Part shown: positions 1-22,500 of the stretch, in pieces
Layout: each line of letters starts with the position of its first letter
Numbering within the stretch: position 1 is the stretch's first letter
Program-made: the position numbers and the translations under genes
Notes under the pieces: model-generated
The model's database searches: none
What the model was told of the DNA's origin: nothing
What the model saw: the letters and a program-made list of their open reading frames with translations, nothing else
DNA from: Monosiga brevicollis MX1
Taxonomy: Eukaryota; Opisthokonta; Choanoflagellata; Craspedida; Salpingoecidae
NCBI RefSeq assembly: GCF_000002865.3
Contig: NW_001865079.1
Span: 26,794-49,293, forward strand
Length of the DNA: 22,500 bases
Direction: 5' to 3'

Positions 1-154
1 CATTATGGCTGCCGCTTTTTTTGGTGTGAATCCACGTCGTTCCAATTCATTTTGGCGCCAAAAGTAGTGAGCTGCTGAGGCGACTTATGTTTGTTTTTGG
101 TCTCTGGAAAAGTCATGCACTGCTCACCATTTTCTGGCTTCTTCTCTGTCTAGG
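1..154. other. Upstream region with probable 5'-UTR intron end
   Basis: No gene is supported here. Positions 121-153 read as a branch-point-like CTCAC, then a pyrimidine-rich tract and TAG. This looks like the 3' end of an intron placed one base before the ATG at 155. An ATG at 87 opens a hydrophobic leader in another frame, but that leader lies mostly inside the intron-like stretch. Confidence 0.4.
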
Positions 155-2117
155 ATGGCGAGCAGTGGCAGTGCAGACGAGCGATCCGGCGCCGTTTCGC
201 GCCCAGCTAGAGCAATGGAAAAGCTGGCCTCACGTGCTCCAGTTGGCCCAACTGCAGACGCTGAAGCCAAGCCGAGCAAGGCTGAAGACAAGCTTAAACA
301 CGCTGAAGCCATGCTGGACAGCGCTGAAGCCAGGCTGGACAGCGCTGAAGCCAACCTGGACAGCGCTGAGGCCAACCTGGAACCTGGACAGCGCTGAGGA
401 ACGTGCCATGGCGCCCATGGACACAGAGGAGCAAGCCAGTGCCGAATTGAAGGTGGCGGAAGCCGAATTGGGCGTGGCCAAAGCCAAACTGGGCGTGGCG
501 GAAGCCGAATTGGGCGTGGCCAAAGCCAAACTGGGCGTGGCTGAAGCTAATGTGGAAGCGGCTACAAATGATGAAGACCGAGCCCGAGCCGAATCAAGTG
601 TGGCCAATGCCAAATTGAAGGCGGCGCAAGCCAAACTGGAAGCGGGCGACGCCGAATTGGAAGCGGCTACAAATGAGAGAGACCAAGCCCGAGCCGAGGC
701 GGACGTGGTCGATGCCAAACTCAACGTGGCCAAAGTGAACGTGGCGGAAGCCGAATTGGGCGTGGCGGAAGCCGAATTGGGCGTGGCGAAAGCCAAACTG
801 AAAGCGACCAAAGCCAAAGTGGCAGCGGGTACGAATGAGAAAGACCAGACCCGAGCCAAATCGGGCGTGGCCAATGCCGAATTGAACGTGGCGGAAGCCC
901 AAGTGAACGTGGCGGAAGCCGCATTGGGCGTGGCCAAAGCCAAACTGGAAGCGGCCAAAGCCAAAGTGGCAGCGTGTTCGAATGAGGCAGACCAGACCCG
1001 AGCCAAATCGGGCGTGATCGATGCCGAATTGAACGTGGCCGAAGCCGAAGTGAACTTGGCCATCTGGCGTCGACGTGCCGCAGAGCTGAGCAATGTCTCT
1101 GAATTCATCCGAGACATCTTGAAAATGGAAGAGGCCTACGCTCGCCAGAAGCGTGATGAAGCTGCAAGCAGAAAAAAACCACCCATGGCGGCTGCAGTGA
1201 GCCCTCGTCCCCTGCAATCCCGTGAGCTTGGTTTCGTGGGCCTCGTGAACATTCCTGACAACGATGGGCAGCCGTTGTATTACCAACCATACTGCTTTCT
1301 CGGCGAGGGCAGGCACTGCAAGGCGTACAAAGGCGACTTTCATGACAAGCCGGCCGTCTTCAAGATTTTCCAGGACAAAGCCGTCATGAAGCAGGAGCGT
1401 GACATGCTTATCAATCTGGATTTGGCCAAGGTTCAAAACGTGCCTGTCCTCAAGGGTTGCTCGGAAGAGTACCCCTACTGCTGCGTCGTGGCCCCTGTAG
1501 GCAGAGAATTTGTCACGCCTCCTACAAGACATGAGCTATCAATGCTTTTGGATGTGCTCAAGGCCGCGCACAAGGCTGGGGTTGTTCATCGTGACCCGCT
1601 TCCCCGCAACTATTTTCGTGTGGATTCTACAATTCTATTCAGCGACTGGGGGTCGGCTGAAGAGATTCGCACAGGCCAGCCAGTTGCACCCACTGGCTGG
1701 CCTTGTGAGCAAGCAGATGACATGATTGACGAGGTTCGTGCCGCTTGCTGCAGTGAATGTGGGAAGAATTGCAGTGTGCAAGCCCCCTCATGTTCGACTG
1801 GTTGTGGTTTGCAGAGTGAGGTGGTGCCCCAGTTCCGACATGACCTGGAAATGTTTGCAAAGGGCATCTTCTTGCGAATGGTGCAAAAGGGCGGCTGGCC
1901 AAATGACCTGCGTAGCACTGATTTTTGGGATGAGGGATACTTGGGATCTACCTGGCGACCTGTCTTGAATGCTGCTCGCTCTCTACCCAATTTCCTTACC
2001 GGAGAAGACTCACCCGAAGATTTTGTGCAAAACCACGATGAGACATACGAGAACTTCAGAAACATACTCTTGGAGTCCTATGATCGCCTGCTCTCTAATG
2101 GGCCCGCTTTGTTTTGA
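155..2117 (+). CDS. Heptad-repeat coiled-coil protein with divergent C-terminal protein kinase domain (frame broken by a 7-bp duplication)
   Basis: The product has two parts. The first is a long Ala/Glu/Lys-rich helix made of seven-residue units such as AELGVAK and AKLGVAE (about 425-1075), expected to form a coiled coil. The second (about 1225-2100) is a kinase fold: a glycine loop LGEGRHCKAYKG, a VAIK-like AVFKIF, a catalytic loop HRDPLPRN at 1587 onward, and DWG at 1644 in place of DFG. Lys, catalytic Asp, Asn and metal-binding Asp are all present, so activity is possible. A Cys-rich insert follows DWG. The start at 155 is chosen because its frame already encodes AEAxLDS heptads and lies directly behind a splice-acceptor-like tract. 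A tandem AACCTGG duplication at 374-387 shifts this frame to a stop at 395-397, and the heptads continue in register in the frame that ends at 2117. Other possible starts in the 3' frame are ATG 408 (good Kozak context) and ATG 87 (signal-like leader, considered less likely). The substrate is unknown. Confidence 0.72.
374..387 (+). repeat. 7-bp tandem duplication that breaks the frame
   Basis: AACCTGG occurs twice in a row (374-380 and 381-387). With a single copy, the LDSAEANL heptads of the upstream frame run without a break into LDSAEERAMAP of the downstream frame. This could be a real allele or an assembly or sequencing error. Confidence 0.75.
425..1075 (+). repeat. 21-bp minisatellite-like array encoding heptads
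   Basis: Degenerate 21-bp units encode seven-residue heptads (AELGVAK, AKLGVAE, AELNVAE). They are interrupted four times by a charged marker heptad of the type NExDQxR: NDEDRAR, NERDQAR, NEKDQTR and NEADQTR. The markers are about 35, 54 and 49 residues apart, which indicates a higher-order repeat. One unit is two residues short (VNVAE), giving a skip in the heptad register. Confidence 0.8.
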
Positions 2118-4194: not shown

Positions 4195-7100
4195 CTAGGC
4201 AGTGTAGTAAACGACTAGCTCGGGGTAGATCTGGGCATTGTCGAACAATACCACCTCGCGAAACTTCCCTTGCGGTGTCGCAATGACAGAATCATGTCTG
4301 CGAGACAGCCAAAGACAAATCACATCAAACGGTGCGACAAGATTTGCAGGTATTGCCTCTTGCTTAACATACCGCTCATTGTTGGGTGCGTTGGGCAGCA
4401 GTGGTGGAGCCAGCGCCGCAGGGGAAGGTGAATGATAGACAAAGGCATGCCCCAGCAGGGCTCGCGTGATGACGAGCATGCGCTGACCATTGGGTGCAGG
4501 TTTTGCATAGACATGACTCTACAGCCAGAGTAGCAACACGCCTGTAAGCAACATTCACGATTACGATCCAGTCAAGGCTGCAAGAAAGCATCAATCGCAC
4601 CTTGCCAGGATGGTCTGCCAAATAAACACCGAGACCAAACCGATGGGCGCCTTTGTCACCCGCAAAGCGATAATCAAGGCCCAGGCGCACAATCTTGTCG
4701 CGCACCGATCTCACGGAGGAGATACCGTGGAACAGCAAGCGCTCTTGACAGGATGAGTCGCGAAGCAAAGCTGGAGAGCCCGAAAGCGCATCCAATGTGG
4801 CCGTTTTAAGTTGAGTGTAGTGCTCCCGAGTTTTGATGCGGTGCAACATCTCCCGTCGCTTAGCATGGTATCGCTCCCACAACACTGGGTTGTGCACGCG
4901 CTCCACCCTCTGCACTACAATATTAGGTGGCCCTTGTCCATCCTTGCTCAGCTCTTTCAACAACTCGGTCACCTAATCACAGAGTGCATTTAAATCAACC
5001 CACCTCACGAAGCGAAGTGAGCAATGGCAGCAACAGCCAACGCACACACACACACACACACACACACACCTCTGATATGAGCTCGGGTGCGTCCCGCAAA
5101 ACGTCAATGGCTGATGTGACATGGGGTGCAACATGTTGCTGTGCAACCTGCATGGCACTCAATAGGCTTGGCCGTTGCTTCGGATCTGCTGTCAGCAACG
5201 CCCGCGTTTCCTTGTACAAATCGCTTGTCGAGTCGCACAGCTGCAAATAAACAAAAAAAAGTGCATTCAGAAAGAATCATAAGCTCACGAGCTGACCCAT
5301 TCACTGATCAGCCAAGAATGCGTTACTGACCTGAGCCGCTAGGTGAGGAAAGCTGCAAGAAGGATCGTTGGCTTGCATGCTCCAACTGCATCGGTTCACG
5401 ACTTCATCGCTTCGCGACTGAGCCGGTGGTACTGTTAGTGGGAACATGTAGGTGTTGTACAAAACGCAGCCAAAGGAAAAGACATCCTGTGCCGGACGTG
5501 CGCCCACATGACCCTGGCCAAAGAGGACCTCGGGTGCGATGTAGCCGGGCGTGCCTGACGACGCAGTGGCCGTGCATGGCAGCATGGTGGCCTCGGCTGT
5601 GGCTTTGGCAATGTCAAAATCACCCAGCCGCACAACGGGCTGGTCCTCATCGCCGTCCAACATGACGTTGCTCAGTTTGACATCGCGGTGCACCAGGCCC
5701 TTGCTATGCATGAAAGCCAGAGCCATGCGCAGCTGAGTCATCAAACCGGCAATCACGCTTAAGGTGGCCAGGTGGCGCGCCTTGCCGAGCCACTGCTGCA
5801 GATCCCCTTGTGTACACCACGGCTGGACCAGGTAGGCGCTCGGGTGGCCATCGTGAACATCCACAAGCGCGCCGAGGACTGGAATGATGTGTGGGTGCTC
5901 AAGCTGCCGCATGGCGCGGAGCTCCCGTAGAAACCCGCGACACCTCTCTTGCTTGTGTTGTCGAGCGAATGCGTACTCTTTTACGGCCAAATCTTGATTG
6001 GGATGACTTGGCAGTGCTGCTCGGGCCTTGTACACCTTATGGTTCCGGTTGTAATAAAGGTCAAGCCGACCCAGGCTGGAGAGCGTTAACAATTGGTCCA
6101 CTCCAGTCATGGCCTCCAAGATGAGCCGGGCCGGAAGATCGGGGCCAAGCTTAGTGCGGAGACGCGCTCCCAACGCACTTTGCTCAGGATGCAGAAAGAC
6201 CAGCAGGGCTGGGAAGTGTTGGTGCAGCAGCTTTGCCAGTGCTGCCACCTCGTCCACCTGCGTTGAGTCCGATAGCTGCTGGCCCAGAGTTTTGAGGCGC
6301 TCCTTTAGTTCCTGCAAATCTTCCTCGACGCCAGCTCGCCGCTCCTCTTTTGCGAAAAGCAAGTACCCAGTGGTAGCATGAATTTGCCTTTTCAGCTGAG
6401 CCTCTTCTTGATGTAGAGATACAACTTGACTTGCGCAGCTTTGTTTGATACCACCAGCATGTTTTTGGCATAGATCTAGCACCGACAGTGTCGTGGCCTG
6501 CCATTCAACCATGTCTTGCAGCTGCTGCATCAGGGCTCGCGCTTCTTGAAACACAAACGCGATATACCAGGCTTGATGCTCATAGTCGTGCTCTGCCTTC
6601 CAGTCTGTGAGCTGTTTCAGACCATTCTGCTTGGGTGAGCTCAGGTTTTGGTGGGCCTGGTGCAGCTGCTTCCATGCCTTGGACAACGCTTTGGCTGGAG
6701 GTGGTACGTTTGCATCTGAACATTGCACTCTTTGCAGCAGCATGTCCACGCAGCGGACCATTTTGCTGGATCCTGCTTGTGCTACGGCGCCCAGCGCATC
6801 TATGAACGCGGATTCCACACGTTGGAGGTTGCTGTTGGTGCATTTGAGCATCTCTTGGCGCTTTTCCCCAACATTGTGCAGCTTGCCAAGCTTTTCAAGA
6901 CCTTGCACCAGGTTGGATGGCATTGCCTCTTGAGTCGGTCCAGGATTCTGCATCATGTCGGCATCGTCAGGGCTGGAGCTAGCTTTGTGCCGTTTGGAAG
7001 GTGGAGAACCGCTCTTCGCGGGTTTGGTGCGGGGTGGTTTCGTCGTCTTGCTGAAGACACCAAAGTGATTTTGAAACTCGTCAAAGTGCTGTTGAAACTT

Positions 7101-10100
7101 GTTCTTCACCGACAGCAGCTGAAGCTGAGCTGTGAGACCATGCATCTCTTGAAGTACCGATTCTAGCTTGTCGGACTGTGGGTTCAGTTGCCTGAGACGG
7201 TCGCTTAGTGCTTCGGTCACCTGCAATGCTTGACTGAGCGCGTTGGAGGCTTGGGTGGTCATGGCCTGAAAGGCTGGCCAGTCCATTGCAGGAAGGTCCA
7301 TGGGAGCTTCATTGATGATCTTCTGGATGTGAACAACCGCCGTTCTAAGATTGGGATCGTGCTTTCTGGCGCCTCTAATAAAGGCATCCAGATGTGGGAG
7401 GGGATGGGTGGGGGCACGCTCGGGTAGGAGCGGCTTGAGCCACTTGTCCACCGCAACCACGACCGCTGCCGTGGACTAATCGGGTCACAAGGTGATGAGA
7501 GTGGCCAGTCATGAATGTGTTGGTTCAGGTTTGGGCTGAAGCTTGGATTAGAGGCTTGGGCTATCAGCATAAATCGGGATGAGGGGGCTCACCTCAAGGG
7601 ACGGATGGTTGAGCAAGGGCGGCAGCCAGACGGACGGCAGTGCAGGCGCGCGGAATGCGATTTGAGCTTCGTGGGTGGCAAACACAGACTCCAGGTTGCT
7701 ACCGTGCCCTCTCCGACGTCCCCTCTCAAGGGGTGTTTCAAAGTTCTTAGAGGGGGTTTACAGTCGCGATCAGAGCACGTGAGCGAGGCAACGAGGTGTA
7801 GCTGGTCTTGGGTTTGTTGGTGTTGTCAAAATATAGCCGGCGCAACGATATGCAAGAACAGCCTGTGCCAATGAAGCCGGCAGGTAGTCTGGATAAATAC
7901 AAGATCCAACGAGAAAGGCTTGTTTTGGGGAATATAAAACGTTGAGTTGGGTATGGAAAAAGCAGGCTGGAAGCCGTTTGAGCCGGATCAAAGACGCAAT
8001 ATAGTGGATAAAAAGCGCGAGGTGGGCAGGTAGGAGGTGCAGCCAAAGGAAGAAACAATAACGTGTAGGTGCAAAGAAGGGAAGGAGGGAGAATTGGAAC
8101 GGTTGCGCACGATGGTCAGGTTGTAGAGGAAAAATGAGCCAAGAGCAGGAGTAGGATGCAGGATACAGGAGGCAGCATGCAGGAGGCAGGAGGCTGGAGG
8201 CAGAATGCGGGAGGCAGGAGGCAGGAGGCAGGAGGCAGGAGGCAGGAGCACGGGCCGCCATGAGAAAGATAAGCGGAAGGCACAAACCTTGGTTTTGGTT
8301 TTAGCTTGAGCATCAGCGCCGTGCTTCAATAGCATCTCCACGAGCTGCACATGACCAAGGTCACAGGCATGGTGCAGTGCTGTGCAGTCATCCTGTTGGT
8401 TGATACATCACACCATGAAAAACAAGTGTACCATCATGATTATGGGTTGACTACACATATCATGAGATACATTTCACGGAAAGAAGGGGGTGCAGACCTT
8501 GTCTTTCGCTCTCACATCAACGCCGTGGCTCAACAGCGTCTGTGCCACCGCCATTTGACCGAGGCTGCAGGCATGATGCAGTGGTGTCTGGTCATCCTGA
8601 TGGTTGATGCATTACAGCAATATATAAGTGTAGCATCATTATCTTGCGTTAGCTACATATATGGATAAATCACATCTCGCTTTGTACTGCACTTGGAGCG
8701 TGATACTGACCTTGTCTTTGGCTCTCGCATCAACGCCGCGCTCCAACAGCAAATTTACCACCTCGATACGCCCAAAACGGCTGGCCATGTGCAGTGGCGT
8801 CAAGCGATCCTGTTTATTGAGGCACCACACCATTGCGCATAGTCACAGTCATGTGTGAGCTATGCACACTTACAGGAAAAAGAATGCTTGTATGAATGTT
8901 ATGCATGTGGATGTAGACGTATTGTTAAAGGCACTTGTCAGACTCAATGACGACGAAACAGCTAACGAAATCAAGTACATTGCAACTGGTGTATCGAAAT
9001 CGGGAAGGGGCAAAATGGGGGCACCCACTTTGGTGGTCTTGGCTTGAGCATCAACGCCGTGTTTTAGCAGTATCTCCACAAGCTGCACATAATCGCGTCG
9101 GCAAGCATCGTGCAAAGGTGTCATGCCATCCTGTGGATTGACATCATTACGAACAGGTGTAGCATCCTTATCATGCATGAGCCGTGCCTGTCGAATTGAT
9201 ATGCAACGGAGGCAGCACCACAATAGAGCGGGGAAGAAGAGTACAGACCCTGGTCTTGGTTTGGGCATCAACGCCGTGTTTTAACAGCATCTCCACAAGC
9301 TGCACATGACCGCATGCGCAGGCATCGTGCAGTGGTGCTATACCAGTCTATTGAATGACATCACAAACAGGTGCAGCATCCTCATCATGAATAAGCTGTG
9401 CATGTCGGTAGCACCACAACAGAGGAAAGCGAGGACAGACCCTGGTCTTAGCTTGAGCATCAACGCCGCATTTTAACAGCATTTTCACAAGCTTCACATG
9501 GCCGTGTTGGCAGGCGTCGTGCAACGGTGTTCTGCCAGTCTATGGGTTGGACATCACATCAACGAACAGATGTAGCGTCCCCAACATGAATTAGCCGTGC
9601 ATGTCAAATACTTATGCAACAGAGGCTGTGCCACAATAGAGGAGGGAGAGATACAGACCCTGCTCTTGACTCGAGCACTAACGCCGTGCTTTACCAACAT
9701 TTCCACAAGCTGCGCATGACCGCGTTGGCAGGCATCGTGCAGTGGTGTCATGCCAGCCTGTGGGTTGATGAACCACACCATGACGAACAAGTGTGTCGAG
9801 CATCCTCATCATGTGTGAGATGGCATGGATGGATTCTTAAACATCAATCGAATGTCCACGATAGAGGGAAAAGAAAAAGGCACAGACCTTGTTCTTGACT
9901 CGAGCGTCAACGCCATGCTTCAACAGCGTCTCCACCACCATGATATGACCGCAAAGGCAGGCATAGTGCAGTGGTGTACGTCCATCCTGTAGGTTGATGC
10001 ATCCCCATTGCATGCAGGTGCAGCGTCATGTCAGAACAATTCAACACATTTCAGGTTTATCAACCAAAGAGGGGGCGACATCGAGGCACCGACGTCGGTC

Positions 10101-10660
10101 CTAGTTTGTGCATCAACGCCATGCGTCAGCAGCTTCTCCACCAGCTCCACACAACCACGAATACAGGCTCCGTGAATTGGGGTCAAGCCATGCTGTAGGA
10201 TCATAAAACCAGCATCATGGCATTGTTTTTGTTATACATGATGATGAGAATAATACCCATACACACAAGGATCTTGTTCCAGTTGGTGTGCCAAAATCAA
10301 GGTACTGACGTCGGTCTTGGCTTCTTTATTAGCGCCGTGCTTCAATAGTATCTCCACCAACTCCACGTGACCATTTTTACAGGCTCTGTGCAGAGGCATA
10401 CGCCCGCCCTGTGGGTTGATGCAACACCATTACGGAGAGGCACAGGTCACATTGCAGTTTTGGCTTTATGGGGCTACTTGAGCTGAGCCAGTAGTACGCA
10501 CGCGAGCACAATCAATCGTCAGACATACCGCATCTTCAAAAGTAACAGCGGATCGAATTCGTTGTTCGTCCCAGCTGTTCAACAGCTGCAGCGCCGTGCT
10601 TGGATTTTTCATTTGACAAGCACTGTACAGCTGCTCTCCATCATCACTCGCAGTACTCAT
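4195..10660 (-). CDS. Ankyrin repeat - protein kinase - PARP fusion protein (tankyrase-like layout with an inserted kinase)
   Basis: Sixteen exons assembled by eye: 10529-10660, 10310-10408, 10094-10192, 9888-9986, 9659-9757, 9441-9539, 9249-9347, 9029-9130, 8711-8809, 8498-8596, 8288-8392, 7593-7745, 5331-7475, 5070-5240, 4601-4972, 4195-4518. All 15 introns are phase 0; the sum is 4296 nt (1431 aa). Residues 1-44 are an N-terminal cap (ATG at 10660). Residues 45-377 are ten ankyrin repeats (TPLHDAC...LLKHGVDA type). Residues 378-900 are Gln/Leu-rich helices. Residues 900-1170 are the kinase: AVK Lys927, Glu946, HRDVKLSN with Asp1026 and Asn1031, DFD at 1047-1049, GTPGYIAPE. Residues 1201-1431 are the PARP catalytic domain: FHG His1282, GVY Tyr1317 and YPELVVYY Glu1424 give the H-Y-E triad. 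By family, ankyrins bind partners, the kinase phosphorylates Ser/Thr and the PARP transfers ADP-ribose from NAD. Exons 7593-7745 and 5331-7475 lack a plausible initiator Met, which supports one transcript. The weakest join is the 542-nt intron 7746-8287; two genes cannot be excluded. Confidence 0.8.
5043..5069. repeat. (CA)n microsatellite at a splice donor
   Basis: A 27-nt CA run. On the coding (minus) strand it is (GT)n and begins at the first intron base after GAG at 5070-5072, so the repeat itself supplies the 5' splice site of the intron 4973-5069. Confidence 0.85.
7746..8287 (-). other. Long intron of the ankyrin-kinase-PARP gene
   Basis: This 542-nt stretch separates the last ankyrin exon from the exon at 7593-7745. 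It has donor GTTTGT (8287 down) and acceptor CTAAG (up to 7746) behind a C-rich tract. The minus strand is pyrimidine-rich and no exon-like segment was recognised. An alternative 5' exon for the kinase-PARP half could hide here. Confidence 0.55.
8167..8249. repeat. GCAGGAG heptamer minisatellite
   Basis: Imperfect tandem copies of a 7-mer (GCAGGAG on the plus strand), becoming regular from about 8213 to 8249. It lies inside the long intron, just after the donor of the last ankyrin exon. Confidence 0.8.
8288..10408 (-). repeat. Tandem array of ten ankyrin exon-intron units
   Basis: Ten exons, eight of exactly 99 nt (33 codons) and two slightly longer (102 nt at 9029-9130, 105 nt at 8288-8392). 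Each encodes exactly one ankyrin repeat and all are in phase 0. Exon starts are spaced 192-229 bp apart, except one gap of 321 bp. The introns are related too: next to most acceptors the plus strand reads like ctgtgggttgatgca, then acgaacaggtg and agcatcctcatcatg. Whole exon-plus-intron units were therefore duplicated. Confidence 0.9.
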
Positions 10661-14593: not shown

Positions 14594-17013
14594 ATGACCA
14601 AGCGCGTTCGCTTTGTCCACTTTAACGACGTCTATCGCATCGGTCCCAAGGACGTACGTGGCGCACACACTTGAATGGTTCTTCATTTGCTCGGCCACTG
14701 GCCCCAACGCCCCACTTGGCTAACCCTGCTTACCCTTGTGCCTCCTAGACGGAGCCTGTCGGTGGGGCAGCTCGCTTTGTTCGAGCCATCCATGATAAAG
14801 CCCCGGATGCCCTCGTTGTATTCAGTGGTGGGTCATCGTCATCCCGCTCGCCGATAAGCCCGAGCCCCGCTCCTCATCGGTTTTTTCCCCCATCCTTAAC
14901 GCTTGCACCCGGCCTGGCCCGACAGGCGACTGTTTCAACCCATCACTGCTTTCCTCAGCCACCAAGGGTGCGCATATGGTTCCCGTTTTGAACAAGTGTA
15001 ACATTGTGGCGGCCACGTACGGCAACCATGACCTCGACTTTGGCGAAGACACGCTCATCAAGCTTTCCAACGACTGCAATTTTCCCTGGCTTCTGGCCAA
15101 CATGCACCACGCCGATGGATCGTGCATCGGCACCGCCAAAAACCACCTGATCCACGAGCACAATGACCTCCGAATCGGCTTTTTTGGCCTCGGCGAAGAA
15201 GAATGGTCCGGTCCCGCTCTCCCTGTTTGCCTACTCCCTGCCGTGGTGCCAATGGGTCATTCTCATCGCAGGCGGCCGATGCATTTTCCAGGGTGGGCAC
15301 GCTCCCCGATCCGCCAGAGAACATGGTCTACCGCGACTTTATCGAGGTGGCCCACGAACAAGTCAAAGTCTGTTGCTCGCTGTGCCACAAATCCTGCATC
15401 GTTGGGCCGTGCACGTTTTCGCCTCTATGCCACCCGGACCGACACTGACTTTTTGACGACTTCTGCTTCCCACCCCCTAGTTTTTGAAGGAGCAAAAGTG
15501 CGATTTGATTGTGGCCATTACCCACATGCGTTTACCCAATGACCAACGTCTAGCCGATAGTGTTCCCGGGCTGGATCTGGTCTTTGGCGGTCATGACCAT
15601 TTCTACAAGCAAGAGCAGCACGGGGATTGCTTCGTCTCCAAGTCGGGAACCGACTTTCAGGAGTTTACCATCCTCGAAGCCGAGCGAGGCGCTGGCGGTG
15701 AGCGCTGGCAGGTCAAGTCTGAGCGCATCGAGGTCGTTGGCTCCATGCCGCAAGACAGTGAAATGGAAAAGCTTGTCGAGGACATGGAAGCCCACATCTC
15801 TGAAACCCTCGACAAGGTTGTGGGCTACACCGAGACGGACTGGGACGTCCGTGCTGAAGCCGTTCGCACCAAGGTGCGTTGTGTCCCTGCTCGTTTGCCC
15901 CCATCGTGTACCCGTCAGGCAGTCGATTCAAGTCAAACTGCACATCTCCCTGGCTCACTGGGGGCGTTTGGTGTTTCAGGAATCCAACGTGGGTAACTTT
16001 TTTGCGGGTGTGATGCGCCTGCGTTACGGTGCTGAACTTGGTACGTGCAGAAAATATTCGCACCTCTGAGCGCCGGCGTTGGCCTTTGGGCAGCACACGT
16101 GTTCCACCCGAATCAAAACAGCCCATAACATCCACAACCCAGAGGCTGATGATCCAACCTTTTTTTTTTTTTTTCCCGTTCCCGTCATTGGTTATTTTAG
16201 GCTTGCTGTGCGGTGGGACGCTGCGCTCCGACACGGTCTACGAGGCTGGGCCAATCACTGCTCGCGACATCAACACGATACTGCCTTTTCAGGACCCATG
16301 CGTGGTGCTTTCCATTACTGGGCAGCAGCTTTTGGAAGCATTGGAAAATGGTGTCAGCAAGTATCCAGCGCACGACGGGCGGTTTCCCCAGATCTCGGGC
16401 TTTCGGTTCACATTTGATCCAGCCATGCCACCCATGGAGCGCGTCGTGGAGGTTTTGGTGGGCGAAGAGCACGAGGAGCTTGATCTCAACCGCACGTACC
16501 GTCTGGCCACCCGCTATTACCTGGCCACGGGCCACGATGGCTATGACATTTTGCAAAAGTGCCCCGAAATTCTGGATCACGAACTGGGCTCTCTCCTCTC
16601 CACCATTGTAATCTCGGCTCTGAAGGAGGTTTGTTCCCTGCGTCCGGCCTCGGCTGCCCTGCCTTGTTACCAACTCGTGTGGCGGTGCAAATTGTGTGGC
16701 ATCACTACTCTCAATGCCAACTCAACACGCCCTCGTCCCGTTGTTGTAGGTCACTGTGGTCAAACGCTGGAAGGAGCGACACTCCATGCTGCGAGGCGCC
16801 ATTGCTGCATGGAAGGGTATTCGGCCCTGGACGCAACGGCGACCCGAGCAAGAGGGTTGCATCGTGTGCCCGCGTCCCGATGGACGCATCCAGACGGTTG
16901 AGCAAAGGAGCAACTCGGTCCCACCCGAGAAGCGTACGCGGTATTCTGTTTCGTATGCCTACGGCGTGGAGGTTGGCAGCCCGCAGGTGGACCATCCCCT
17001 CTCATCTCACTAA
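14594..17013 (+). CDS. 5'-nucleotidase family metallophosphoesterase (UshA/NT5E-type two-domain, cytosolic form)
   Basis: Eight exons: 14594-14653, 14749-14827, 14926-15205, 15292-15367, 15481-15873, 15980-16040, 16201-16628, 16750-17013 (546 aa). The N-terminal metallophosphoesterase domain has HFND (residues 9-12), GDCFNPS (47-53), GNHDLDFG (79-86), THMR with His180, and GGHDH (201-205), the usual metal ligands. The C-terminal 5_nucleotid_C domain has ESNVGNF, GGTLRSDTVY, ITGQQLLEALENG and GHDGYD, the substrate-binding half. By family it hydrolyses a phosphate ester such as a nucleoside monophosphate. The exact substrate is open, since related genes act on other phosphoesters. No signal peptide or GPI signal is visible, so it is probably cytosolic. 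In the first metal motif the usual second His (NDxH) is Tyr (NDVY). The join 15205/15292 uses a GTCCGG donor; the frame and the EEW-VGTLP match require it. Confidence 0.92.
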
Positions 17014-18541: not shown

Positions 18542-18891
18542 TTAACTATGGGGCTTTTTTTTTTACACAAGCAGAGCGGTGCTTCGCCCAGAACTGATGA
18601 ACCCCGTGACCCCTGCCACACTCAATCAATTATTCCCACTGCCACCACATGACCGGCTGGCGTCATGGGACACTCTCGTCATTCGGTCAGACCTTGACGA
18701 ATTCTTTAGATGGCAGGAGCCTCATGTCTTGGGCTGTCACTGGGACCAGAGCGCCTCGCACGTCCAGTCAAGTAGCTCGACCCGCCCCAGAAGTATCATT
18801 TTTCAACTCTCGATCTCACATGTAATCAAAGAGCTCAACTGGACACTTGCCCATCGATCACTTTGCGAAAGAAACAACCACAACCATTACC

Positions 18892-19776
18892 ATGCCCAAC
18901 ACGACCCACACGATCGCTGTCACTAGCGTGACCGGCAACCTCGGTGCGCTGGCTGTTGAGAAGCTGCTGGCGCGCGGTCAGCCGGCGTCCCAGATTGTCG
19001 GCCTGGCTCGCACGCCATCCAAGGCCGCTGCGCTTCGGGCCAAGGGCGTCACGATTCGCGCCTTTGACTTTGAGCAGCCCGCGACCAGTGCCCTCGTGGG
19101 CGTGGACTTTCTGTTGCTCGTCTCATCCAGCGAGGTCGGCAAGCGCGCGGCGCAACACCAGCACGTCATTGACGCGGCCAAGTGGGCGGGTGTGAAGCTG
19201 ATCGCTTACACCTCGCTGCTCCACACCGACACGTCGGCCCTGACTGTGCTGCCGGCGGAGCACAACGCGACCGAGGCTGCACTCAAGGCCAGCGGCGTGC
19301 CCCACGTGCTGCTACGCAACGGCTGGTACAACGAGAACTATGAGAGCTCGATTGGCGGTGCTGTGGCGCAGGGCAAGCTAATGGGTGCTTCCGCCAAGGG
19401 CAAAATTGCGTCAGCGTCCCGCGCCAACTATGCAGATGCGGCAGCTGCCGTATTGCTGGCCGATGATGCAGTCGCACAGCACGCCGGCAAGACGTACGAG
19501 CTGGCTGGTGATGAGGCATACACGCTGGCTGAGCTGGCGGCTGAAGTGCAGAAGCAGAGCGGCAAGACGGTCGAGTACGTGCCCCTTGATCGTGATGCCT
19601 ACAAGGCAGCCCTCGAATCCATCGGCCTGCCCGAGCCGATTGCTGAGATGCTTGCCGACTCGGACAACGGTGCGGCCCAGGGTGGCCTGTTTGATAACAG
19701 CAAGACGCTGAGCGCGCTAACAGGCAAGCCAACCACGCCCATCGCCGAGACGGTAGCTGCGATGCTCAAGCAATGA
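18892..19776 (+). CDS. qorB: NAD(P)H:quinone oxidoreductase, QorB/NmrA-like family, bacterial type
   Basis: A single intron-free frame of 294 aa. It resembles bacterial QorB (E. coli YtfG, 286 aa) along its full length: the dinucleotide-binding loop VTGNLGALAVE, then PASQIVGLAR, LLLVSSSEVGKRAAQH, LIAYTSLLHTDTS, LLRNGWYNENY, GKIASASRANYADAAA, YELAGDEAYTLAELAAE, ADSDNG and GGLFDNSKTLS. This family has a Rossmann fold and reduces quinones with NADPH in the cytosol. The ATG at 18892 is preferred over the in-frame ATG at 18847 because it has a better context (ttaccATGc) and matches the bacterial start. There is no signal or transit peptide. All other well-supported complete genes to the right of 4195 have several introns, so the lack of introns plus the closeness to bacteria suggests horizontal transfer. 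Confidence 0.95.
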   Translation: MPNTTHTIAVTSVTGNLGALAVEKLLARGQPASQIVGLARTPSKAAALRAKGVTIRAFDFEQPATSALVGVDFLLLVSSSEVGKRAAQHQHVIDAAKWAGVKLIAYTSLLHTDTSALTVLPAEHNATEAALKASGVPHVLLRNGWYNENYESSIGGAVAQGKLMGASAKGKIASASRANYADAAAAVLLADDAVAQHAGKTYELAGDEAYTLAELAAEVQKQSGKTVEYVPLDRDAYKAALESIGLPEPIAEMLADSDNGAAQGGLFDNSKTLSALTGKPTTPIAETVAAMLKQ

Positions 19777-21787: not shown

Positions 21788-22500
21788 TTAAGAGCCTGCG
21801 CGAGGCACAAAGTGCTTGTCGTCAGCGGGTGCCTTGCGAGTGGCTTGGTATTTCCAGGCCTTGGAAATGAGGCGCTCTGGTACGATGGGATCCTTTTCGT
21901 TGTCGGCTTCAATCTGTTGCAGGGTCGCGGCGTCCAGGAGGGGCAGGCGCACATGCTCGATGACGGGTGCAATGGTGTCCTTGAGTGATTGGCCGGTCAC
22001 CACGGCGTTGACACTTGCCCAGTTCTTGGCCACTTCCAGAACGGTGCTCTCGGGTACTCGCAGCTTATCCGATTCGAGAATGTGTGCAAAGGTTTCCGCA
22101 GAAATTTCAACAAAATGTTTGGAGTGAAAGACCTCGGCCGTGTGCTCTTCGATAAAGGTCATGCAGCGATCACGCAGCTCGATCTGATCGTACGCAATGG
22201 CCGCCTGGAATGGAGAAACACAACCAAGAGAGAAAGGGCGCATGGTCATATGGGTAGTTATGAGTATGATGATGTCGCATCCGGCCCACAACGCAGGATC
22301 CATGCCCCCCTTCACCCCCCTCTAAAAAAAAAAAACGATCACAGTACCTGAATGGCACCGCAGGCGGTGTCGACGGTAAGGTTGTCGGTGATGTAGTTGG
22401 CACAGCAAGCGGCCAGGCCATCCAGGCCGTACTCGATGGCCGAGGCCAGCACGTCCACCACGGTCGAGGGCTTCAGTGTACAACTGTTGGTGTAAATGTA
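21788..22500 (-). CDS. BTB-BACK domain protein (5' part beyond the window)
   Basis: Two exons are visible: 22348-22500 (incomplete at its 5' side) and 21788-22204, joined in phase 0 across a 143-nt intron. The first gives the end of a BTB/POZ domain: YIYTNSCTL, then VVDVLASAIEYGLDGLAACC. The second gives a BACK domain: CMTFIEEHTAEVF, FVEISAETFAHILESDKLRV, ESTVLEVAKNWA and VRLPLLDAATLQQIE. The protein ends soon after at TAA 21788-21790, so there are no C-terminal Kelch repeats. BTB-BACK proteins often act as Cullin-3 substrate adaptors or scaffolds. What the N-terminus contains cannot be seen here. Confidence 0.87.

Follow-up and report, generated by a model that had tools for sequence, protein, structure and literature searches.

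The window analysed here, a stretch of 22,500 nucleotides (nt) from Monosiga brevicollis MX1 (contig NW_001865079.1, positions 26,794 to 49,293), carries on its minus strand a gene predicted to encode ankyrin repeats, a protein kinase and a C-terminal PARP domain in a single chain. From an ATG at 10660 to a TAG at 4195, both present in the sequence as a previous sequence-only reading had placed them, 17 exons join without a frame break. The predicted protein of 1406 residues consists of ten ankyrin repeats, a half repeat, a 440-residue middle region, the kinase and the PARP domain, and an in-frame TGA lies seven codons 5' of the ATG. All three domain types named in that reading scored above the curated Pfam cut-offs (Ank, ten stretches, expectation value (E) 5.5e-77; Pkinase, E 1.1e-36; PARP, E 2.4e-11). 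Its uninterrupted frame also stood, although its count of sixteen exons did not: a 75-nt intron at 4298-4372 (GT-AG, phase 2), which is removed in the deposited model as well, brings the number to 17 once it is spliced. This last intron can also be read through in frame, yielding 1431 amino acids (aa), hence the earlier count of sixteen phase-0 exons. GT-AG boundaries delimit all 16 introns; the first 15 are in phase 0 and the sixteenth in phase 2, so that the statement that every intron is in phase 0 had to be given up.

Because the gene is already in databases, its existence is not new. Exon 13 matches M. brevicollis MX1 MONBRDRAFT_39188 at 100% identity over the entire exon length; this deposited model, of 1123 residues, begins and ends with the same residues as ours and lacks seven ankyrin exons and exon 12. 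The sequence-only reading knew of no described protein with this domain order. None was found in the literature searched (an earlier mention in M. brevicollis kinome or genome papers is possible), although the public entry for MONBRDRAFT_39188 already assigns all three domain types. The available portions of a 2010 PARP survey, the 2022 tankyrase paper (PMC9688111) and the S. rosetta genome paper describe no three-domain protein, and the words ankyrin, PARP and ADP-ribos are absent from the main text both of the STING paper on M. brevicollis and of a 2025 preprint. The larger result, outside the original single-gene finding, is that the gene belongs to a family of about 50 loci whose ankyrin surface is diversifying.

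Gene family and exon junctions

Searching the 39.5-Mb M. brevicollis assembly with exon 13 returned 100 rows. Joining the exon pieces of each locus, and setting aside six matches to ordinary kinases (E 3e-15 to 7e-11) and a fragment containing four stops, reduced them to 50 places, of which 36 are near-full and 14 are partial or divergent. This puts the family size in the genome at about 50 loci. The matched long exon is free of stops in 34 of the 36 near-full copies, with one stop each in L011 and L032. A search with the PARP exon gave 56 rows, and a PARP exon lies at most 1.5 kb downstream on the same strand in all 36 near-full copies and in 45 of the 50 places. Second PARP exons resembling old duplicate tails were also seen about 1.4-1.9 kb downstream of six copies (contigs C9, C14 and C7), five of them decayed with stops (C9:76296, C9:44720, C9:104117, C14:166886 and C7:96525) and one open (C9:9606).

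Protein searches covered 5.8 billion sequences and relied on shared 5-residue words, with only about 8000 top candidates scored in two of the three, so distant relatives may be missed; among the protein matches listed, no family member outside M. brevicollis was found. The middle region returned 17 matches, all from M. brevicollis, and the PARP region 20, of which 19 were from M. brevicollis and one was ostrich PARP10 (E 1.3e-7). Among the best 120 of 254 matches to exon 13, 17 M. brevicollis family members were followed by other kinases, mostly bacterial, from E 1.8e-15. Altogether 21 deposited family members were returned, eight of them with all three domain types assigned by precomputed Pfam annotation; the family is known as database predictions, mostly incomplete.

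Family loci lie at most 25 kb from a contig end in 14 of 48 cases (two loci on contigs of unknown length were left out), against a uniform expectation of about 7%. The telomere pattern (TTAGGG)4 had one exact match in the genome, on contig C29, where no family locus is listed, and none on the contigs with family loci near their ends. The excess can therefore not be called subtelomeric, and it may reflect assembly breaks at repeats.

The residue, splice-site and dN/dS (nonsynonymous to synonymous substitution rate) counts below were made on 30 near-full copies out of the 36, namely L009-L038, among them the copy in the window. Both junctions that had been doubted, 8288/7745 and 5070/4972, are kept across the paralogs, and one gene with the predicted order ankyrin-kinase-PARP, as originally read, is strongly supported. 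Exon 12 opens with half an ankyrin repeat (NFETPLERGRRRGH; by eye), so the ankyrin part spans the 8288/7745 junction, and exon 12 homologues (TPLxxGRxxGHGDKLEPVFAAHE) are placed between the ankyrin exons and exon 13 across the family. An AG directly precedes the homologues of both exon 12 and exon 13 in 30/30 copies, and an ankyrin exon is found in the short upstream flank in 28/30; ankyrin exons themselves carry the AG in 42 of 45 cases and the GT in 42 of 45. On the other side, the PARP exon follows 310-518 nt 3' of the kinase exon in 36/36 near-full copies. Starts like that of exon 1 occur in the deposited paralogs P0002, P0003 and P0015 (by eye), with tblastn matches at L021, L031, L039, L041 and L045.

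The alternative is a misjoin of two genes, one with ankyrins only that ends after 8288 and one for kinase and PARP that starts within 7746-8287. It would draw on the long, pyrimidine-rich intron 11 and on several deposited models (P0007, P0010 and P0012) that begin in the middle region and have no ankyrins. Yet the paralogs have an intron in the same place, likewise pyrimidine-rich and 200-667 nt long (200 nt in L021), and no conserved reading frame was seen in it in the 13 copies aligned and four translated. The frame leading into exon 12 is interrupted by stops shortly before it, and no Met follows these; the deposited models P0002 and P0005 connect ankyrins to exon 12. We consider a misjoin very unlikely and reject it on the exon order, splice sites and half repeat in the paralogs. 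A hidden exon in intron 11 was rejected on the same paralog introns without a conserved frame, and a chance open frame on paralog conservation. The consensus of the 13 aligned paralog introns also contains a tract of 23 T. Table 1 collects the parts of the gene together with the other features seen in the window.

Table 1. Parts of the ankyrin-kinase-PARP gene and other features, in window positions
Feature	Positions	Strand	Basis
Exon 1: start ATG and N-terminal ankyrin cap (LYSACQ...ALQLLNSWDEQRI)	10529..10660	-	Sequence and paralog matches
Exons 2-11: ten exons of 99-105 nt, one ankyrin repeat per exon, phase 0	8288..10408	-	Frames and Pfam
Intron 11: 542 nt, pyrimidine-rich	7746..8287	-	Splice sites, paralog introns
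7-nt tandem array, 15 copies, within intron 11	8145..8248		
Exon 12: closing half ankyrin repeat and Pro-rich linker	7593..7745	-	Frame and paralogs
Exon 13, first 440 codons: middle region, no confident Pfam match	6156..7475	-	Pfam, protein searches
Exon 13, rest: protein kinase domain	5331..6155	-	Pfam, residue alignment
Exon 14: kinase end and linker to PARP	5070..5240	-	Frames, Pfam
Exon 15: first part of PARP, triad His (LFHG) and Tyr (GVYLAD)	4601..4972	-	Frames, profile search, residue alignment
Exon 16: middle part of PARP	4373..4518	-	Splice reconstruction
Exon 17: end of PARP, triad Glu (FREVVLFDNAQIYPEL), stop TAG	4195..4297	-	Splice reconstruction, Glu register
Open frame of 695 aa with a hydrophobic start, followed by long AEAELGVAKAKL-type repeats and a stretch resembling a kinase (HKAGVVHRDPLPRNY, FSDWGSAEE)	30..2117	+	By eye; no Pfam match at E up to 0.01
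5'-nucleotidase gene pieces: C-terminal domain at 16014-16898, preceded by frames resembling the N-terminal part	14799..16898	+	PF02872, E 1.7e-31; preceding frames by eye only, no Pfam match
NmrA-like protein	18826..19773	+	PF05368, E 9.8e-17
BACK domain fragment of a BTB/Kelch-type protein	21788..22321	-	PF07707, E 1.8e-15

Kinase and PARP domains

The kinase fold is supported by its profile (PF00069, 127 bits vs a cut-off of 31.7). In the window's copy the Lys and the HRDVKLSN, DFD and APE motifs are present and the glycine-rich loop is lost. Across the 30 copies, the kinase Lys, HRD, the catalytic-loop Lys and Asn, and the DFG Asp are all retained (30/30), and the third residue of the DFG motif is likewise Asp in every copy, the motif reading DFD, or DCD in one copy. 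GxGxxG is absent from all 30 printed rows as judged by eye, the loop being of the type YNQNHKVYKA. The kinase is non-canonical, with DFD for DFG and without a GxGxxG loop.

The PARP profile PF00644 scored 44 bits (cut-off 26.7) and matched in 13 of the 14 deposited members scanned. The triad His is present in 29/30 loci, and the Tyr and Glu in 30/30. The Glu pairs gaplessly with the Glu of AEYVIY in tankyrase-2, whose letters were confirmed (31/31), and stands where PARP12 has Ile and PARP15 has Leu. Its register is clear against these proteins; MAFFT with the M. brevicollis PARP1/2-like gene paired another Glu, and gapless scoring there was ambiguous. By overall profile score, PARP12 (64.6 bits) and PARP15 (58.5) came before tankyrase-2 (36.1). 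We take the aligned Glu to be the catalytic triad Glu, which would suggest poly-ADP-ribosylation, and given the H-Y-E triad the activity is probably of the poly- or oligo-type. A 2014 survey (PMC4245714), in the portion available, reports PARG and PBZ homologues in M. brevicollis and no MacroD or TARG1, which would fit the turnover of polymer rather than of mono-ADP-ribose.

Over 435 pairs of the 30 copies, median dN/dS was 0.13 for the kinase, 0.23 for exon 14, and 0.17, 0.21 and 0.13 for exons 15, 16 and 17 respectively, compared with 0.26-0.32 for the middle region and 0.42 for exon 12. These values are rough, because synonymous sites are far diverged (median proportion of synonymous differences, pS, 0.34-0.58) and some pairs are saturated (e.g., 111/435 for exon 17). 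In these copies, purifying selection acts on the kinase and PARP exons. As the catalytic residues of both domains are conserved, it is plausible that one protein would both phosphorylate and ADP-ribosylate. In low-identity alignments, the divergent L040 keeps its kinase motifs and has lost the PARP triad, and the divergent L041 retains H-Y-E with HGH and GFE at its kinase motifs; the two point to separable kinase and PARP activities.

Variation of the ankyrin arrays

The window and 16 further loci were scanned for ankyrin arrays. Eight arrays were of 2-11 repeats, the seven besides the window's holding 2 to 11 ankyrin exons (nine in the truncated L039). Among the partial or divergent loci, L040, L041, L044, L045 and L046 contain 3, 2, 1, 2 and 1 repeats respectively, and none were found in L042, L043, L047 and L048. 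In the window, the units of exon plus intron are tandemly repeated at a spacing of 192-321 nt, and introns 5-7 are alike at 74-80%, the remaining intron pairs at 44-68%. Fourfold-site divergences of the gene parts are correlated (rho 0.47-0.64, 435 pairs), and some pairs are mosaic. On contig C28, L036 and L037 show no fourfold differences (0%) in exon 12 and the N-terminal middle region and 57% in exons 14-17, which suggests conversion or recombination between family members. The gene parts have partly different histories.

The most variable ankyrin positions in the eight arrays are 8, 11, 3, 12, 33 and 1 (49 of 51 repeats, two gapped ones dropped). They include all five contact positions, which we take to be those randomised in designed ankyrin libraries. 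None of 20,000 random five-position sets matched the entropy of the five, and the value with a sixth contact position (24) was 0.0003. In the last ankyrin exon, compared among 27 copies (of the 28 that have an ankyrin exon, L037 was dropped as identical there to L036), contact codons have a proportion of nonsynonymous differences (pN) of 0.59 vs an all-codon pS of 0.32, a pN/pS of 1.85 (bootstrap confidence interval (CI) 1.43-2.66), and non-contact codons a pN/pS of 0.54 (0.45-0.71). The observed contact pN was reached by none of 5000 random five-codon sets. Close within-array pairs gave 1.20 for contact positions and 0.65 for the rest when L039 was excluded, a truncated copy whose near-identical repeat pairs inflate the filtered within-array ratios. 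That contact positions evolve faster than other ankyrin positions is firm; that contact codons also change faster than synonymous sites is likely rather than proven, and depends on the pS used.

Proposed function and comparison with known systems

The reading we favour, with confidence somewhat better than even, is that the single protein of about 1406 residues belongs to a family of about 50 loci encoding intracellular recognition proteins, in which a variable ankyrin surface is joined to a constant kinase and PARP output. The concave ankyrin surface would bind a ligand that differs between members, e.g., a microbial product or a host protein modified by it, as may be expected from the diversification of the contact positions. 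Binding would be relayed via the middle region to the kinase and PARP, which, with their catalytic residues in place, may respond with phosphorylation together with ADP-ribosylation. By multiplying the ankyrin units of exon plus intron and swapping parts between members, a mechanism to which the patterns of repeat number and mosaicism point, the family could change its specificity and leave its output untouched. A further step, which we offer tentatively and hold to be possible rather than probable, is that the family is an undescribed class of intracellular immune-type receptor, in which exon-shuffled hypervariable ankyrin arrays would sense non-self and a linked kinase and poly(ADP-ribose) polymerase would respond, an NLR-like solution invented separately and without a NOD domain.

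Several observations weigh against a recognition role. When the contact codons' own pS is used, their pN/pS falls to 1.20 and the CI (0.93-1.72) includes 1. Among the ten repeats of the window itself, the six positions made up of the five contact positions and position 8 have a ratio of 0.90 and the remaining ones a ratio of 0.46; within-array pairs without L039 give 0.90 at contact positions vs 0.55 elsewhere. The contact positions were chosen from earlier work on designed ankyrins after the window's repeats had been seen, and the contact test ran on the family's ankyrin exons alone. Synonymous sites are partly saturated, the kinase might be inactive given its DFD motif and missing GxGxxG loop, the family is known here from genome sequence and predicted models alone, and neither ankyrin nor PARP is a word of the main text of the STING paper.

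If the kinase is inactive, it may be a pseudokinase serving as an allosteric switch or dimer part, with the PARP alone enzymatically active. The loop and DFD features (DCD in one copy) fit this, as does L041, which keeps H-Y-E alongside HGH and GFE in its kinase. However, the Lys, HRD, Asn and DFD Asp are kept in 30/30 copies under a kinase dN/dS of 0.13, and L040 shows the reverse loss, its kinase motifs outlasting the PARP triad. We regard a pseudokinase as a serious possibility but not the expected outcome; it is compatible with the recognition reading, and its probability is not to be added to those of the other alternatives.

Two other readings do without recognition. The proteins could be ordinary signalling scaffolds, tankyrase-like in spirit, whose ankyrins bind assorted host proteins for the kinase and PARP to modify, and which grew by duplication with no role in non-self sensing. 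Surface positions are variable in many ankyrin proteins, both enzymes are constrained here, tankyrase already combines ankyrins with PARP, and the PARG and PBZ homologues of M. brevicollis (PMC4245714, as available) would suit such a role. About 50 loci found in one species only, with variable repeat number, mosaics and fast contact codons, nevertheless exceed the needs of a fixed scaffold, and we think this reading rather unlikely. The last reading, to which we give very little credence, is of a repeat family in decay, multiplied by duplication and largely non-functional. It draws on the broken or truncated copies (among them L011 and L032), the partial places, the extra PARP exons that have decayed, and the loci near contig ends. 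Against it, stops are absent from the matched part of the long exon in 34 of 36 near-full copies, and all catalytic exons show low dN/dS in the 30 copies tested.

Fusing a kinase to a PARP in one chain would allow phosphorylation and ADP-ribosylation to be coupled directly, and no account of such a combination was found in the literature searched. Were the immune reading true, a receptor class of this type would lie in a close unicellular relative of animals. Two questions become testable: whether relatives of animals evolved large receptor repertoires of their own without NLRs, and whether ADP-ribosylation is an ancient immune output. M. brevicollis, a choanoflagellate, has been used as a model of pathogen response (PMC8592570, available in part).

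Among known systems, tankyrases (PARP clade 4) share with the family the ankyrin repeats followed by a C-terminal PARP with H-Y-E. They differ in that here a kinase sits between ankyrins and PARP, the loci number about 50, and the PARP domain scores nearer PARP12/15; no SAM domain was listed among Pfam matches at E up to 1. Identity with tankyrase was ruled out on the missing SAM domain and the closeness to PARP12/15. The clade 3 mono-ADP-ribosyltransferases PARP12/14/15 are the nearest solved PARP domains by sequence, whereas PARP12 and PARP15 have Ile or Leu at the third triad position, where Glu stands here, and no macro, WWE or zinc-finger domain is among the Pfam matches of the window protein. 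Ankyrins and a kinase are combined in one chain in animal RIPK4/ANKK1 and ILK, from which the present family differs by its PARP domain, orphan middle region, DFD motif and lack of a glycine-rich loop. Tankyrase itself is reported as not detected in M. brevicollis (PMC9688111, in the part available). Proteins combining ankyrin repeats and PARP have been noted in this species (PMC4245714) and are probably some of the present family genes; the main-text passages available mention no kinase domain, number or repeat variation.

The closest functional analogy may be with fungal NOD-like receptors (NLRs), whose ankyrin repeats, e.g., in Podospora anserina, change in number and are under positive selection on the concave surface (PMC4986451, available in part). 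They could serve as a precedent for recognition. Shared features are the ankyrins as a variable module, variation in repeat number, fast concave-surface positions and the swapping of parts among family members, which that paper reports for WD repeats (PMC4986451, same portion). Here, in contrast, the ankyrins are N-terminal, the outputs are a kinase and a PARP, each repeat occupies its own exon with introns between, and the concave-surface comparison comes from paralogs of one genome rather than from isolate polymorphism. Pfam matched no NACHT or NB-ARC domain in the window protein or the deposited members scanned, which rules out membership of the NLRs (STAND), and none of the eight NACHT places listed in the genome falls at a family locus. 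The family is neither NLR nor tankyrase, and would work like a fungal NLR-type receptor.

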